A stretch of 64,000 bases of DNA from Alloyangia pacifica (GTDB taxonomy: Bacteria > Pseudomonadota > Alphaproteobacteria > Rhodobacterales > Rhodobacteraceae), in assembly GCF_020524285.1 (NCBI RefSeq), contig NZ_JAIVKX010000013.1, positions 1 to 64,000 of the forward strand, read 5' to 3'. The notes under the pieces were generated by a model. The model ran no database searches, was not told where the DNA came from, and worked only from the letters and a program-made list of their open reading frames with translations. Positions 7,671 to 12,594 of the stretch are shown here, in pieces. How positions within the stretch are numbered: the first letter of the stretch is position 1; each line of letters opens with the position of its first letter. Made by a program: the position numbers and the translations under genes.

Positions 7671-8163
7671 CGATCACTTGGAGAACTGGGAAATGCCCGC
7701 AGCTTCGGCCCTTCCCGATCCGCCGGGCGCAGATGACCCCCGCTGAAGTGCTGGCCATCGGAAGGGCTCTGGCTCGGAAGCGCTAGAGCGCTTGAATTCG
7801 GGACGGCCAGCGGATGTCCTGCTGACAGCTGTGGGACCGCCGAAGGGGCTGAACGGCCGCCGGTTTGCACTGGCTGCCGCGGAGGGGCGGCCGAGACCAA
7901 GGCCGTCCCTGTCCTAGGATGCGATGAAGCCCGCGGCGCTTGGCGCCGACCTTTCGGCGGTGGGCATGGAAGCGGGCATGGAAATCGTGCATGAAGGCTC
8001 TGATCCCGACGTGTCGACCGAAGAGAGGGAGCGGTCTTGCCGGCGTCGGTGCATGACGTATTCTTCTGCCTGACGCAGCGATAGGCTACGTTCCCATTGC
8101 CGTTGACTTTATTTCCGCTAACTGGCTTATCTGCCGAATAATAATGAACTGGGGTTCCTGCAA
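7671..8163. other. Intergenic stretch without a recognisable gene
   Basis: About 490 bp separate the flavin reductase and the stressosome operon. No frame here looks like a real protein: the open frames are short, basic and Arg/Pro/Ser-rich in the way of GC-rich non-coding DNA. The last 70 bp turn AT-richer. They contain TTGACT at 8103-8108 and aataataatg near 8136-8145, which may belong to the stressosome promoter. No -10 box is well spaced from TTGACT, so the promoter is not defined. Confidence 0.4.
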
Positions 8164-9039
8164 ATGCCGCAAACAGCGACGGCAAATATTCTGACCATCC
8201 TCGAAACCGATTTCTCCGGTGTCGTGGAAGAGTGGCTTGGCACCCAGGTCAAGGAGGGCGTGAAGCGCTCCGACCTGTTCTCCGACTCCGAAAGTCGTGC
8301 GCAGAACCAGGAACTCCTGAAAGCATTCGGCAAGGGCGTTCGGGCGGGTGTCGTGAACGAGGAATTCAGCCTCGAAGATGATGCCTGGGAAGACCTGCGC
8401 GCCGTCTTGGCCGATGTCAGCAAGGAGCGCGTCAGCCGCGGCGTCACGCCGACCGAAATGGCGACCTTCGTGCTGGCGCTCAAGGCGCCGCTGTTCAAGC
8501 GGCTCGAGGCCATGCCCGGCGTCGAAGGCGGGAAGCTCATTCGCGACGTGCTGATGGTGACCCGGCTTGTCGACGCCTTCGCGATCTACACCAACGAGAT
8601 CTTCATCGGCGAGCGCGACCAGATCATCGAACGCCAGCGCCAGGAGATGCTCGAACTGTCGACCCCCGTGGTCGAACTCTGGGACCGGGTGCTCACGCTG
8701 CCGCTCATCGGTACGCTGGATTCCGCCCGGGCGCAGGAGGTCATGGAGAACCTTCTGCAGACCATCCTCGAGCGCCAGGCCGAGGTGGTGATCATGGACA
8801 TCACCGGTGTCGGCACCGTCGACACGCAGGTTGCGCAGCACCTTCTGCGGGCCGCGGCCGCGGTGCGTCTGATGGGGGCCGAATGCATCATCAGCGGCAT
8901 CAGCCCGATGATCGCGCAGACCATGGTGCAACTCGGCATCGACGTGGGCACCGTCTCGACCCGGTCCAGCATCCGCACGGCGCTGTCCGATGCGCTGCAG
9001 AAGGTCGGCTATGTGATCAAGACCACCGAGGCCTCCTGA
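8164..9039 (+). CDS. rsbR: RsbR-type stressosome sensor/co-antagonist (RsbRD_N + STAS)
   Basis: This 291-residue protein has an N-terminal helical sensor-like domain (about 1-155, RsbRD_N-like: 'ILETDFSGVVEEWL' onwards) and a C-terminal STAS domain (about 160-285). The two threonines used as RsbT phosphorylation sites in Bacillus RsbRA have counterparts: T167 in 'LELSTPVVELWD' and T221 in 'GVGTVDTQVAQHL'. 'GISPMIAQTMVQLGI' is typical of RsbR STAS domains. In the family, RsbR and RsbS form the large stressosome that holds RsbT until stress. It is the first gene of a five-gene operon, with rsbS starting 1 bp after its stop. The signal sensed is unknown; no haem or flavin motif is evident. Confidence 0.9.
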   Translation: MPQTATANILTILETDFSGVVEEWLGTQVKEGVKRSDLFSDSESRAQNQELLKAFGKGVRAGVVNEEFSLEDDAWEDLRAVLADVSKERVSRGVTPTEMATFVLALKAPLFKRLEAMPGVEGGKLIRDVLMVTRLVDAFAIYTNEIFIGERDQIIERQRQEMLELSTPVVELWDRVLTLPLIGTLDSARAQEVMENLLQTILERQAEVVIMDITGVGTVDTQVAQHLLRAAAAVRLMGAECIISGISPMIAQTMVQLGIDVGTVSTRSSIRTALSDALQKVGYVIKTTEAS

Positions 9040-9040
9040 C

Positions 9041-9394
9041 GTGTCGGGTGTGACGTCCATAAATCTGGTCGAGAACGCGCTTCTCGTCTCCATTCAGGAC
9101 GACGTCACCGATACCGAAATCGTCGAGTTGCAGGAGACCCTCTCCAACCGGATCGCCAAGGAGAACGTCAAGGGCGTGATCCTCGACATCAGCTCGCTGG
9201 AGATCGTCGATACCTTCGTCGGGCGCGTCATCGCCCAGCTGGCCGGAATCTCCCGGCTGCTGGCCGCCGAGACCTACGTTGTCGGGATGCGCCCGGCGGT
9301 GGCCGTGACCCTGGTCGAGCTGGGGATGTACCTGCCCGAGACCCGCACGGCGCTCAGCCTGACCCACGCGCTGTCCCAGTTGCGGCGTGCCTGA
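9041..9394 (+). CDS. rsbS: RsbS-type STAS antagonist, stressosome scaffold
   Basis: This is a single STAS domain of 117 residues from a GTG start at 9041. 'NALLVSIQDDVTD' at the N-terminus and 'GMRPAVAVTLVELGM' near residue 85 match RsbS closely. The phosphorylation site, a Ser in Bacillus RsbS ('IDSF'), is a Thr here: T58 in 'LEIVDTFVGRVI'. RsbS sequesters the RsbT kinase and releases it when phosphorylated. It is tightly coupled to rsbR (1-bp gap) and to rsbT (8-bp overlap). The GTG start is supported by the conserved N-terminal strand. Confidence 0.92.
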   Translation: MSGVTSINLVENALLVSIQDDVTDTEIVELQETLSNRIAKENVKGVILDISSLEIVDTFVGRVIAQLAGISRLLAAETYVVGMRPAVAVTLVELGMYLPETRTALSLTHALSQLRRA

Positions 9395-9806
9395 TCCCGA
9401 AGGGACATCAGGCAGGCCCGCGATCGCGGAGATAACGCTCGCAACCAGCCGGGACGTGGTCGCCGCGCGCCAGGCGGTCGCCCGGATCCTCAAGGAACGC
9501 GGGCTCTCGGTGATGCGCATCACGCGCTTCGCGACGGCGGTGAGCGAAATTGCTCGCAACGCCATCGTGCACGGTGGTGGTGGCCGGATTTCGATTTATC
9601 TCGATACGCGTAACGAGTATCTGCGCGTCGAATGCCGGGACGAAGGTCCGGGGATCGAAGATGTGACGCTGGCCATGACCGAGGGCTACACGACCGCGGG
9701 CGGGCTGGGCAGGGGGCTTGGCGGGGCCAAGCGGCTCTCACATGGGTTCGAGGTCCGGTCCGAGCCCGGAAAGGGTACAACCGTTTCCATGAGCGTGAAG
9801 CTATGA
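9387..9806 (+). CDS. rsbT: RsbT-type serine/threonine switch kinase
   Basis: This GHKL-fold kinase has 139 residues and starts at GTG 9387 inside the end of rsbS. The N-box is 'AVSEIARNAIVHG' (E54, N58), the G1 box 'CRDEGPGI' (D85), and the G2 region 'GGLGRGLGGAKRLSHGFEV' (106 onwards). These match RsbT rather than RsbW. In Bacillus, RsbT phosphorylates RsbS and RsbR, leaves the stressosome and activates the phosphatase RsbU. No RsbU is encoded here. The next gene begins with a second GHKL domain, so RsbT's downstream partner in this operon is an open question. Confidence 0.92.
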   Translation: MPDPEGTSGRPAIAEITLATSRDVVAARQAVARILKERGLSVMRITRFATAVSEIARNAIVHGGGGRISIYLDTRNEYLRVECRDEGPGIEDVTLAMTEGYTTAGGLGRGLGGAKRLSHGFEVRSEPGKGTTVSMSVKL

Positions 9807-10813
9807 ACCAGTGGGTCGAGATTGATGATCGGAGCGCCGTCGCCGTGGTGCGGCGGCTTGCGCGGCGCCATGGCGCCGAGATCGGTCTTCCCGAGACGCG
9901 CGTCGACGAGCTGGCGATCGTCGCGACAGAGGCGACGACGAACATCCTGCGCTACGCCGAGCGCGGCCGGGCCCTGATCGAGCTCGTGCGGTCCCCCGGT
10001 GCCGAGCTGATCACCATGATATTCACCGACCGCGGACCGGGGATCTCAGACATCGACCGGATGTTCCAGGACGGCGAAAGCTCCACGGACTCCGCCGGGC
10101 TGGGGCTCGGGGCCATCGTTCGGTTGTCCGATACCTTTGACATCTTCAGCTCGCCCGAGAACGGAACCACTATCGTGTGCACCTTCGGGGGGCGGGGCGA
10201 GCGCCTGGACGTCGGCGTCGAGGCCGTTGGCCTGCGCGTGTGTCATCCGCACGAGGACTCCTGCGGCGACGACTACCAGATCCGGCAGACCCCGCGGGCG
10301 ACCGACGTGCTGCTCTGCGATGGCCTTGGCCATGGTCCCGCCGCCGCCGAGGCCGCCGCCGAGGTCACGGACGCCGCTTTCGCCGCGGGCGGGCTGTCGT
10401 CCGAGCCGGGCAAGCTGATGCGCCAGATCACCGAGACGCTGGTCGGGCGGCGCGGCGCCGTGGCCGCGCTGGTGCATGTCGCGCAGCCGCAGATGGAGAT
10501 GCGCTACTGCGGACTCGGCAATATCTCGACCTTGCTGATCGGCGCGCAGGGCGTGCGCCGCATGGCGGTTCGGGACGGTCGCATCGGCGGCGCCGCGACC
10601 CGCGGCTACGAGGAAGCCGTGCAGCTCGAGGCGGGGGACATGGTGATCCTGCACAGCGACGGGCTGAAAACGCTTCGGGAAACCCACTTCCCGCCGGGGC
10701 TGCTGAAGAAAAGCCCCCTGCTGATTGCCGGCTTCTTTCTCGACCGGGCCTTCCGCGGTCGGGATGACGCCAGCATTGTCGTGATGCGCATCAACCGGGA
10801 GCGCGAGCAATGA
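9803..10813 (+). CDS. GHKL ATPase domain fused to SpoIIE/RsbX-type PP2C phosphatase
   Basis: This 336-residue protein starts at ATG 9803, overlapping the rsbT stop (ATGA). Residues 1-130 form an RsbW/RsbT-like ATPase with N-box 'ATEATTNILRYA' (E43, N47), 'FTDRGPGI' (D76) and 'GLGLGAI'. Residues 138-330 are a PP2C phosphatase of SpoIIE/RsbX size, with metal-binding Asp residues in 'LLCDGLGHG' (D173), 'LHSDGLKT' (D286) and 'RDDASIVV' (D321/D322). RsbX resets the stressosome by dephosphorylating RsbS and RsbR. Here that activity is joined to its own kinase-like domain. All key motifs of both domains are intact. Confidence 0.88.
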   Translation: MNQWVEIDDRSAVAVVRRLARRHGAEIGLPETRVDELAIVATEATTNILRYAERGRALIELVRSPGAELITMIFTDRGPGISDIDRMFQDGESSTDSAGLGLGAIVRLSDTFDIFSSPENGTTIVCTFGGRGERLDVGVEAVGLRVCHPHEDSCGDDYQIRQTPRATDVLLCDGLGHGPAAAEAAAEVTDAAFAAGGLSSEPGKLMRQITETLVGRRGAVAALVHVAQPQMEMRYCGLGNISTLLIGAQGVRRMAVRDGRIGGAATRGYEEAVQLEAGDMVILHSDGLKTLRETHFPPGLLKKSPLLIAGFFLDRAFRGRDDASIVVMRINREREQ

Positions 10814-11946
10814 AGACGGCGAAGCTCACCACCGTGACCCTCGAGAAAAGCGCCGACGTGGCCCGGCTGCGCGAGGTGGCCATGACGCTGACCAACGTGC
10901 TGCAGTTCGGCTCCTTCGAGCGGACGCGGACGGTGACCGCCGTGGTCGAGCTTGGCCGCAACGCCATCGAGCATGGCCAGAAGGGGCGTGCGACCTTCTC
11001 GCTCACCGAGGTGAACGGCAAGCCGGCGCTCGGTCTTCTGGTGACCGATCAGGGGCGGGGGATCCCGAAAGAGAACCTCGAGCCCGACGGCCCGCCGACC
11101 TCCTCGGCGGGCATGGGGCTGGGGCTGCGCGGCGTGCAGAGGATTGCCAAGCGCTTCGACGTCGAGACCGGTCACGAGGGCACGCAGATCGATGCGGCGT
11201 TCCAGCCGTCGGCGAGTTTGCCGGCCAGCCCCCAGCTCATCGACCAGGCGACCGAAGCGTTGAACGAACTCAGCGCCAAGGATCCCACTGCGGCTCTCAG
11301 CGAGCAGAACCGGGAGCTGAGCGAGGGGATCGCCGACCGTGACCTGCTCATGCAGGAACTGCATCACCGCACTGGCAACAACCTCGCGCTCATCGTCGCG
11401 CTGATCCGCATGAGCAAGTCGCAGGCCGAACAGGATGAAACCCAGCAGGTCCTGACCGAGCTGGAGGTCCGCGTCGGCTCCCTGGCCAAGGCGCACGAAT
11501 TGATGCAGCGCGGCACGGATGCCGGAAAGGTCGACCTGTCGGAGATGCTCGACGAGGTCGCCAGGACATCGGAGCGCGCCTTCAGCGGAGGCGCCCTCGC
11601 CGCCAGCATCGAGGTGTCCTGCGGAGCGCTGCAGCTCGACAGCAAGCTTGCCATCGACATCGGGCTCATCATCGGCGAACTCATCACCAACGCCTTCAAG
11701 TATGCCTTCGTCGGGAGGGAGAAGGGACTCATCCGTGTCGAGGTCACCGGCGAGCTGGAGCATGGCATCACGCTGGTGGTATCGGACAACGGCGTCGGCC
11801 TGCCGGCGGATGCCGAACGTCCGGAACGGTCGAACTCTCTCGGCTGGCGGATGATCCGGACGCTGACTTTCCAGCATGACGCCACCCTGACCGTGGACGG
11901 GGCGGATGGTCTGCGCGTGCACATCAAGTTTCCCGCGCAAGCCTGA
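10810..11946 (+). CDS. GHKL-HisKA_2-GHKL protein: RsbT/W-like ATPase fused to a histidine kinase core
   Basis: The protein (378 aa) starts at ATG 10810, overlapping the previous stop by 4 bp. Residues 1-135 are an RsbW/RsbT-like ATPase (N-box 'VELGRNAIEHG' E47/N51; 'VTDQGRGIP' D80; 'GMGLGLRG'). A linker helix (155-180) leads to a HisKA_2-type dimerisation box 'LMQELHHRTGNNL' with H185 as likely phosphoacceptor. A second ATPase domain fills 245-375 ('IIGELITNAFKYA' E290/N294; 'VSDNGVGLP' D326; 'LGWRMIRTL'). There is no PAS, GAF, membrane or receiver domain, so input presumably comes from the stressosome proteins. HisKA_2 kinases often feed PhyR/NepR/EcfG in alphaproteobacteria; that output is inference. 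Confidence 0.88.
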   Translation: MKTAKLTTVTLEKSADVARLREVAMTLTNVLQFGSFERTRTVTAVVELGRNAIEHGQKGRATFSLTEVNGKPALGLLVTDQGRGIPKENLEPDGPPTSSAGMGLGLRGVQRIAKRFDVETGHEGTQIDAAFQPSASLPASPQLIDQATEALNELSAKDPTAALSEQNRELSEGIADRDLLMQELHHRTGNNLALIVALIRMSKSQAEQDETQQVLTELEVRVGSLAKAHELMQRGTDAGKVDLSEMLDEVARTSERAFSGGALAASIEVSCGALQLDSKLAIDIGLIIGELITNAFKYAFVGREKGLIRVEVTGELEHGITLVVSDNGVGLPADAERPERSNSLGWRMIRTLTFQHDATLTVDGADGLRVHIKFPAQA

Positions 11947-12594
11947 CCTCCGGCGCGGCCTGGCGCTCTGCTGCGGCGGCTTTGCTCATCCGGGGCGGCC
12001 GTGCCGGTCCTCATCGAGGTATTGGCCCCGGTAGACGGCGCCATTTGAGACCTGCTCGGCGCAGTCGCGCAGGTTCAGTGACGGCACAATCCGCGCAGCT
12101 TCGCGCGCGATCGGCCACTGGCGAACATGCGGAGCGCGGGACCGCAGGGGCCTCGCAATGTGCCACAGACCGGTTCTGGCTACGGCAGCCCCCTAGTCTA
12201 CCTCGCATCGCAAGTCTGGCACTTCCGCGTCTTGGCAACGCAGGTCGATGCTGGGGCAAGTCGCCTTCGCAACCGCAGCGAACGGCCGCAAAGCGCGCGC
12301 TGTCGAGGCTCCACGGGGCAAATCTGCGCTCTCTGGGGATGAACAACAGACCGGCAGGGGGGCAGGTCAAAACGCGCATCGCGTGAATACTTGCCTACTT
12401 TGCAGGCGTGACACGAGATCGACCTCGACTTCCGGGATACGGAGACTCGCGAGAGGTATGGGGCAAGTGTCGGAAAATAATCAATTTCTATGGGGTTGCG
12501 GGCGGTTATATAACGGCTCATTATATTAAACGAAGGATTAGCGGATTTTCTTTTACGTCGCCGCTCTGCAGCGTCCCGGGACCTCGCCTCCCAC
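11947..12594. other. Long intergenic region, no gene recognised; AT-rich probable promoter at its end
   Basis: About 650 bp lie between the stressosome operon and TRAP system A. The first 450 bp are GC-rich with only short Arg-rich frames and no recognisable protein, and may be remnant sequence. From about 12470 the composition turns AT-rich (aataatcaatttctat, ggttatataacgg, attatattaaacg), which is exceptional in this window and probably holds the TRAP promoter. TATAAC at 12509 and TATATT at 12522 are possible -10 boxes, but neither has a convincing -35 at normal spacing. No tRNA or other structured RNA was recognised. Confidence 0.35.

Follow-up and report, generated by a model that had tools for sequence, protein, structure and literature searches.

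What does a stressosome control when the genes for its usual partner-switching output are not found beside it? The question is raised by a five-gene cassette in a 64,000-nucleotide stretch of DNA from Alloyangia pacifica (the window; positions 1 to 64,000 of contig NZ_JAIVKX010000013.1, assembly GCF_020524285.1). The cassette lies on the + strand at 8164-11946, and inspection of its open reading frames (ORFs) shows neighbouring genes that overlap or lie 1 bp apart. It encodes homologues of RsbR, RsbS and RsbT, a fusion of an RsbT-like ATPase with an RsbX-type PP2C phosphatase (TX), and a histidine kinase. All five ORFs are located where the original prediction, made from the DNA letters alone, had placed them, with domain contents that agree with Pfam; Pfam searches also bore out its statement that no RsbU, RsbV or RsbW output is encoded nearby. 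The targets of Gram-negative stressosomes are largely open, and this conserved five-gene unit offers one candidate output. The anatomy and conservation of the cassette are near certain, and we consider it likely that the kinase is its output. The whole explanation, a self-contained stressosome cassette with a soluble HisKA_2 kinase output that feeds a PhyR-type receiver, is one in which our confidence is only just above even.

Judged by sequence, the first three genes appear to supply a stressosome: an RsbR sensor with an acceptor-bearing STAS domain, a single-STAS RsbS with its own acceptor and an RsbT with ATP boxes. RsbR (8164-9039) consists of an RsbRD_N sensor and a STAS domain in Pfam. 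Its residues S187 (codon 8722-8724) and T221 (8824-8826) align with threonines of the solved RsbR chains 6qcm and 7b0u, are both invariant in the 18 rows of our alignment, and are candidate phospho-acceptors. RsbS (9041-9394; Pfam STAS) follows after a gap of 1 bp and carries the candidate phospho-acceptor T58 (9212-9214), which aligns with the serine of solved RsbS and is likewise invariant across the 18 rows. RsbT (9387-9806), the HATPase_c_2 switch kinase, overlaps RsbS by 8 bp and is itself overlapped by 4 bp by TX (9803-10813; HATPase_c_2 and SpoIIE domains). In the alignments, ATP boxes are retained in all three GHKL domains of the cassette, namely RsbT, the N-terminal domain of TX (TX-N) and that of the kinase. 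The phosphatase half of TX has two solved relatives at E 0.001, 3w40 (RsbX) and 3zt9, a chain titled SpoIIE that we take to be Moorella RsbX. With these two as its solved relatives, TX was rejected as an RsbU-type output.

According to passages of PMC9237108 and PMC4976288, the sensor of the Vibrio stressosome is a His-ligated heme. Residues 1-165 of the window RsbR, read from the sequence, contain no histidine, and heme sensing of the Vibrio type, with a His ligand, is therefore rejected for this protein. The predicted structure of RsbR (pLDDT 58) is too poor for use. With the RsbRST-RsbUVW-SigB systems of Bacillus and Listeria, the cassette shares homologues of RsbR, RsbS and RsbT, alignable phospho-acceptor positions and an RsbX-type phosphatase. 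It differs in that no adjacent RsbU, RsbV, RsbW or SigB gene was found, and a kinase output is present instead.

The kinase gene (10810-11946) overlaps that of TX by 4 bp, and its product combines HATPase_c_2, HisKA_2/HWE_HK and HATPase_c domains. The N-domain (about residues 1-132; 10810..11205) is an RsbT-paralogous GHKL ATPase according to Pfam, alignment and a tree of 42 GHKL domains. The DHp and CA domains (about residues 166-378; 11305..11943) are of the HisKA_2 type, with Pfam scores of 58.2 bits for HisKA_2 (cut-off 22.3) and 37.8 bits for HWE_HK (cut-off 22.8), and the HR-x-x-N box together with HATPase_c identifies the protein as a HisKA_2 histidine kinase. H185 (codon 11362-11364) had been proposed as the phosphohistidine. 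We regard H186 (codon 11365-11367) as the more likely phospho-accepting residue, because it aligns with the histidine of the EL346 HR-x-x-N box, though H185 is invariant too, as are H186, R187 and N190 (18 rows). Across the same rows, conservation within the kinase peaks in the 30 residues surrounding the H-box (0.83); it is 0.64-0.67 in the remaining domains and falls to 0.47 in the linker.

In the 42-domain tree, the kinase N-domains form one clade (support 100/99) that is sister to cassette RsbT (92/81, a branch that is not starred). Together with cassette RsbT and two globin-type RsbT sequences, they separate from TX-N and RbaW (100/99), RbaW having a very long branch and the root being unsure. 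The tree includes 13 of the 21 cassette loci and leaves out the RsbT of G250, one of the globin-type genomes described below. The AlphaFold model of the kinase is of moderate quality (mean pLDDT 75, pTM 0.47), and its best fold matches, EL346 and the EL346 kinase domain, would be informative for the kinase core alone and not for the identity of the N-domain. The cassette kinase shares the HR-x-x-N box and the kinase core with the HWE/HisKA_2 kinases of the general stress response (GSR), such as PhyK, LOV-HK and EL346, the last being its closest solved relative by sequence and fold. EL346 and the Brucella relatives are LOV kinases by title, whereas the cassette kinase has an RsbT-like ATPase in front and forms a clade of its own.

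The five-gene order is the same in all 21 loci compared, that is, the window, a second copy in the same genome and 19 further loci; the original prediction had proposed such a comparison across Rhodobacteraceae. This count includes L024, in which RsbR was uncalled among the ORFs and was found by tblastn. The kinase is the last gene in every locus (21/21). Flanking genes differ between genera; close relatives, for example the Sulfitobacter loci, share some of them. The second full cassette of this genome, on contig C16 (L009 8149-11931), is 90% identical to that of the window over 3.9 kb, and dN/dS between the two copies is 0.02-0.15, indicating purifying selection. Because the order is shared by 21 of 21 loci and dN/dS is this low, the grouping of the five genes is not due to chance. 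Both copies are probably working, as far as their sequences suggest. Synonymous differences place the C16 copy nearer to the compared Alloyangia pacifica copy than to that of the window in RsbS, RsbT, TX and the kinase, and at equal distance in RsbR; a recent duplication was rejected as the source of the second copy on these grounds.

Full-length relatives of the kinase are rare in the family and frequent on certain plasmids. With four candidates scored per genome, the kinase was matched in 37 of 394 family genomes at E 1e-20, 10 of them over the full length and 27 in the core alone. Among the best 80 matches in named genomes, 79 loci were kept, of which 11 match over the full length and 68 in the core alone. 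A class-wide sample of 385 genomes contains four matches at E 1e-45, and both full-length ones (G000, the genome of the window, and G075) belong to this family. Matches to the kinase were found in 76 records of a plasmid collection, 60 of them covering at least 80% of its length, and 58 of the 76 records are from Phaeobacter; among the best 25 of the 76 rows, the top two are plasmids of Alloyangia pacifica (182 kb) and Salipiger sp. CCB-MM3 (316 kb). All four plasmid loci that were opened, one of them on the G075 plasmid, carry the five genes. The cassette is thus plasmid-borne in Phaeobacter and relatives, where the kinase is annotated as an 'ATP-binding protein'. Repeated rows were left out of the counts (L140 is the same as L018/G088, and L200 is the same plasmid as G075:C2). 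In Phaeobacter inhibens 2.10, the cassette is located on a 238 kb plasmid (L195 8124-11942, corresponding to NC_018421.1 79571-83389; genes PGA2_RS18170-18190). Its presence in this cultured organism gives direct experimental access.

The claim that a kinase takes the place of a SigB/RsbU output holds in so far as the kinase is the conserved last gene; it does not hold as a novelty. Section 10 of PMC9237108 describes HisKA/REC outputs of stressosomes, for example in Ruegeria, and RsbU_N in some, not all, of the downstream proteins, and RsbU_N kinases are described again in part of PMC12143880. RsbU_N (PF08673) was not found in the cassette kinase by Pfam at E values up to 0.1, and the protein is not an RsbU_N-type output. 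In the literature searched, which was chiefly non-subscription, we found no RsbT-headed kinase in a stressosome operon, nor this cassette. The element for which we found no description is the RsbT paralogue as kinase input, in place of an RsbU_N target; kinase outputs of stressosomes in general are already known.

RsbS-type proteins occur in 13 of the 394 family genomes (E 1e-8), ten as part of the cassette and three with a protoglobin RsbR. The G250 locus (L176) encodes a protoglobin RsbR, an RsbU_N-HisKA kinase (RsbU_N 37.1 bits, cut-off 25.5) and a single receiver. In G226 (L175), the protein downstream has a sub-threshold RsbU_N match and no kinase domain was found in it, and in G017 (L177) the locus ends at the contig end. 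NepR was found in G226 and G250, and not in G017. The G250 stressosome (L176 6702-10550) adjoins transposase-like ORFs. Like the cassette, these globin-RsbR RSTX modules, a type also treated in parts of PMC9237108, have clustered RsbR, RsbS and RsbT, to which G250 adds the downstream kinase and single receiver. In contrast to their protoglobin RsbR (3/3), the cassette has an RsbRD_N RsbR that lacks histidine in residues 1-165; its kinase is of the HisKA_2 type and headed by an RsbT paralogue, whereas that of G250 is of the HisKA type and headed by RsbU_N; and its RsbX is fused to an RsbT-like domain. Because its features differ from those of the three protoglobin-RsbR loci, the cassette is a second stressosome type in the family, with a non-heme sensor, an RsbX/RsbT-like fusion and an RsbT paralogue that heads a HisKA_2 kinase.

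These features suggest a mechanism in which, at rest, the RsbR-RsbS core would hold RsbT and, through a similar surface, also the kinase by its RsbT-like head. Under stress, RsbT would phosphorylate RsbR (S187/T221) and RsbS (T58), and the clients would be released. The freed kinase, perhaps together with RsbT, would autophosphorylate at H186 and pass the phosphoryl group to a PhyR-type receiver. In loci with a single-domain receiver upstream, this may be the recipient; in the others, PhyR or a shared receiver from another part of the genome may take that role. TX would strip the phosphates from the STAS domains and reset the complex. We think it reasonably probable that a PhyR-type receiver is the partner of the kinase. 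The step from the kinase to PhyR, NepR and EcfG is the least certain of the mechanism, and control of the general stress response by the cassette is a tentative suggestion. We are equally guarded about the proposal that the plasmid-borne cassette puts a stressosome upstream of PhyR-NepR-EcfG by means of the RsbT paralogue-HisKA_2 fusion, with the kinase itself as the partner-switched client. If true, two separately studied general stress responses would be joined in one circuit.

The search for PhyR, NepR and EcfG that had been recommended found all three in this genome, in one locus with a PhyK-like kinase, which itself scores below the PhyK cut-off. All 10 cassette carriers have NepR, which 188 of the 394 family genomes encode overall (Fisher p = 5.4e-4, or 1.1e-3 when counted by genus and 7.4e-4 for complete genomes alone), in statistics that ignore shared descent. 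It is also present in all 11 named carrier records, one of which (L018) seems to duplicate G088. PhyR, EcfG and a PhyK-like kinase occur together in nine of nine carriers examined (the genome of the window and eight others, G311 being left out). The carrier G358 (L181, L182) has two NepR-EcfG pairs, and PhyR with a PhyK-like kinase was found beside one of them alone. As described in parts of PMC5964349 and PMC12148442, both PhyR and single receivers are phosphorylated by HWE/HisKA2 kinases. Three of 24 distinct loci encode a PhyR-type single receiver upstream of the cassette and in the same orientation: Salipiger sp. CCB-MM3, S. mangrovisoli and A. pacifica DSM 26894, where a hybrid kinase lies between the two. 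Among eight receivers compared, the best match of this upstream receiver outside its own family is the PhyR receiver, and its relatives adjoin HWE kinases in all seven cases scanned. Receivers on C13 and on C16, the latter preceding the second copy by about 7 kb, were considered and do not belong to the upstream-receiver family.

Several observations weigh against a connection to the general stress response, besides the neglect of shared descent just mentioned. In a quick-method tree of 13 of the 21 cassette kinases and 23 of the 68 distant ones, the kinase core falls outside the clade of GSR-locus kinases and in a clade of its own (support 91); descent of the kinase from PhyK is unsupported. 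None of 21 upstream regions of 350 bp (0/21; L024 left out, L140 repeating L018) contains an EcfG-type promoter, and GGAAC half-sites alone are present in 4 of the 21. Control of the cassette operon by EcfG was rejected on this result. In Vibrio, a published test of RsbT against the kinase encoded downstream of it detected no interaction (PMC9237108). A receiver lies upstream in just 3 of the 24 loci, and no relative of it was found in the window. The original prediction that the cassette may feed PhyR and EcfG gains indirect support from the universal NepR of the carriers and from the receivers upstream of a few loci, and is weakened by the missing promoter, the placement of the kinase and the lack of such a receiver in the window.

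The same receivers bear on a different output. The kinase may use, in common with a CheB-CheR-PAS-HWE kinase encoded on C14 in this genome, that system's single receiver, and control a non-GSR process, motility or attachment for example. Sequence identity between the upstream receiver and the C14 one, which comes after a CheB-CheR-PAS-HWE kinase, is 50-55%, and relatives of the upstream receiver follow such a kinase in 7 of 7 cases scanned (C14 and six of 25 other plasmid records); one further plasmid record has a broken-up version, annotated HWE. Only two proteins in the stretches examined resemble the upstream receiver: that of C14 and, with a weaker match, one in L014. No second relative was found in eight further receiver regions of this genome, the whole of which was not searched with that receiver. 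The co-occurrence with NepR and the similarity of the receivers to that of PhyR point, weakly, to the general stress response instead, and we consider the sharing of the C14 receiver for a non-GSR process unlikely. The C14 arrangement itself (L201 12077-15896, G000:C14), a CheB-CheR-PAS-HWE kinase followed by a PhyR-like single receiver, is a pair also present on plasmids from other alphaproteobacteria.

Less probable still is that the kinase feeds RbaY, a receiver-PP2C protein, and thence the RbaV/RbaW partner switch, which would rebuild the Bacillus cereus RsbK-RsbY logic below a stressosome. RbaV-RbaW-RbaY of Rhodobacter capsulatus is another Rsb-like system of the family, and passages of PMC3999984 give the sensor kinase of its receiver-phosphatase as unknown. 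It lacks RsbR, RsbS and RsbT and is encoded elsewhere. The genome of the window has a receiver-PP2C protein on C7, the contig that carries its sole other SpoIIE phosphatase in a genome-wide Pfam search, and a STAS and HATPase_c_2 pair on C3. However, an RbaY-like protein was found in 8 of 10 carriers (not in G107 and G311) versus 300 of 394 genomes, and is not enriched; since four candidates per genome were scored, these absences are not certain. RbaY as an obligatory partner was rejected on the two carriers, and the upstream single receivers show no match to the RbaY receiver at E 1e-3. Finally, the histidine-kinase half could be of minor importance; the RsbT-like head and TX-N would then act as additional STAS kinases that adjust the stressosome, whose real output would lie elsewhere. 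Phosphorylation of STAS proteins is conceivable for each of the three GHKL domains, as their boxes are intact; the invariant H185, H186, R187 and N190, the well conserved H-box region, the fixed last place of the kinase gene and the closeness of TX to the RsbX type make this very improbable.

Of 53 genes called in the window, cassette included, the Pfam neighbourhood scan covered 10 of the remainder, which encode transporters and enzymes, and the genome-wide Pfam search found no other STAS gene within the window. Downstream of the operon, a stretch of 248 bp (window 12037-12284) is 78% identical to L009 7888-8135 at the second copy; among the compared loci, no further match to it was found beyond overlapping copies of both places. 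A candidate sigma70-like promoter, TTGACT-N18-TTATCT, was located by pattern match on the + strand at 8103..8132, 61 bp upstream of RsbR. Among 21 upstream regions, a pattern search revealed 9 with a comparable element at -58 or -61; as L140 repeats L018, 8 of these are distinct.

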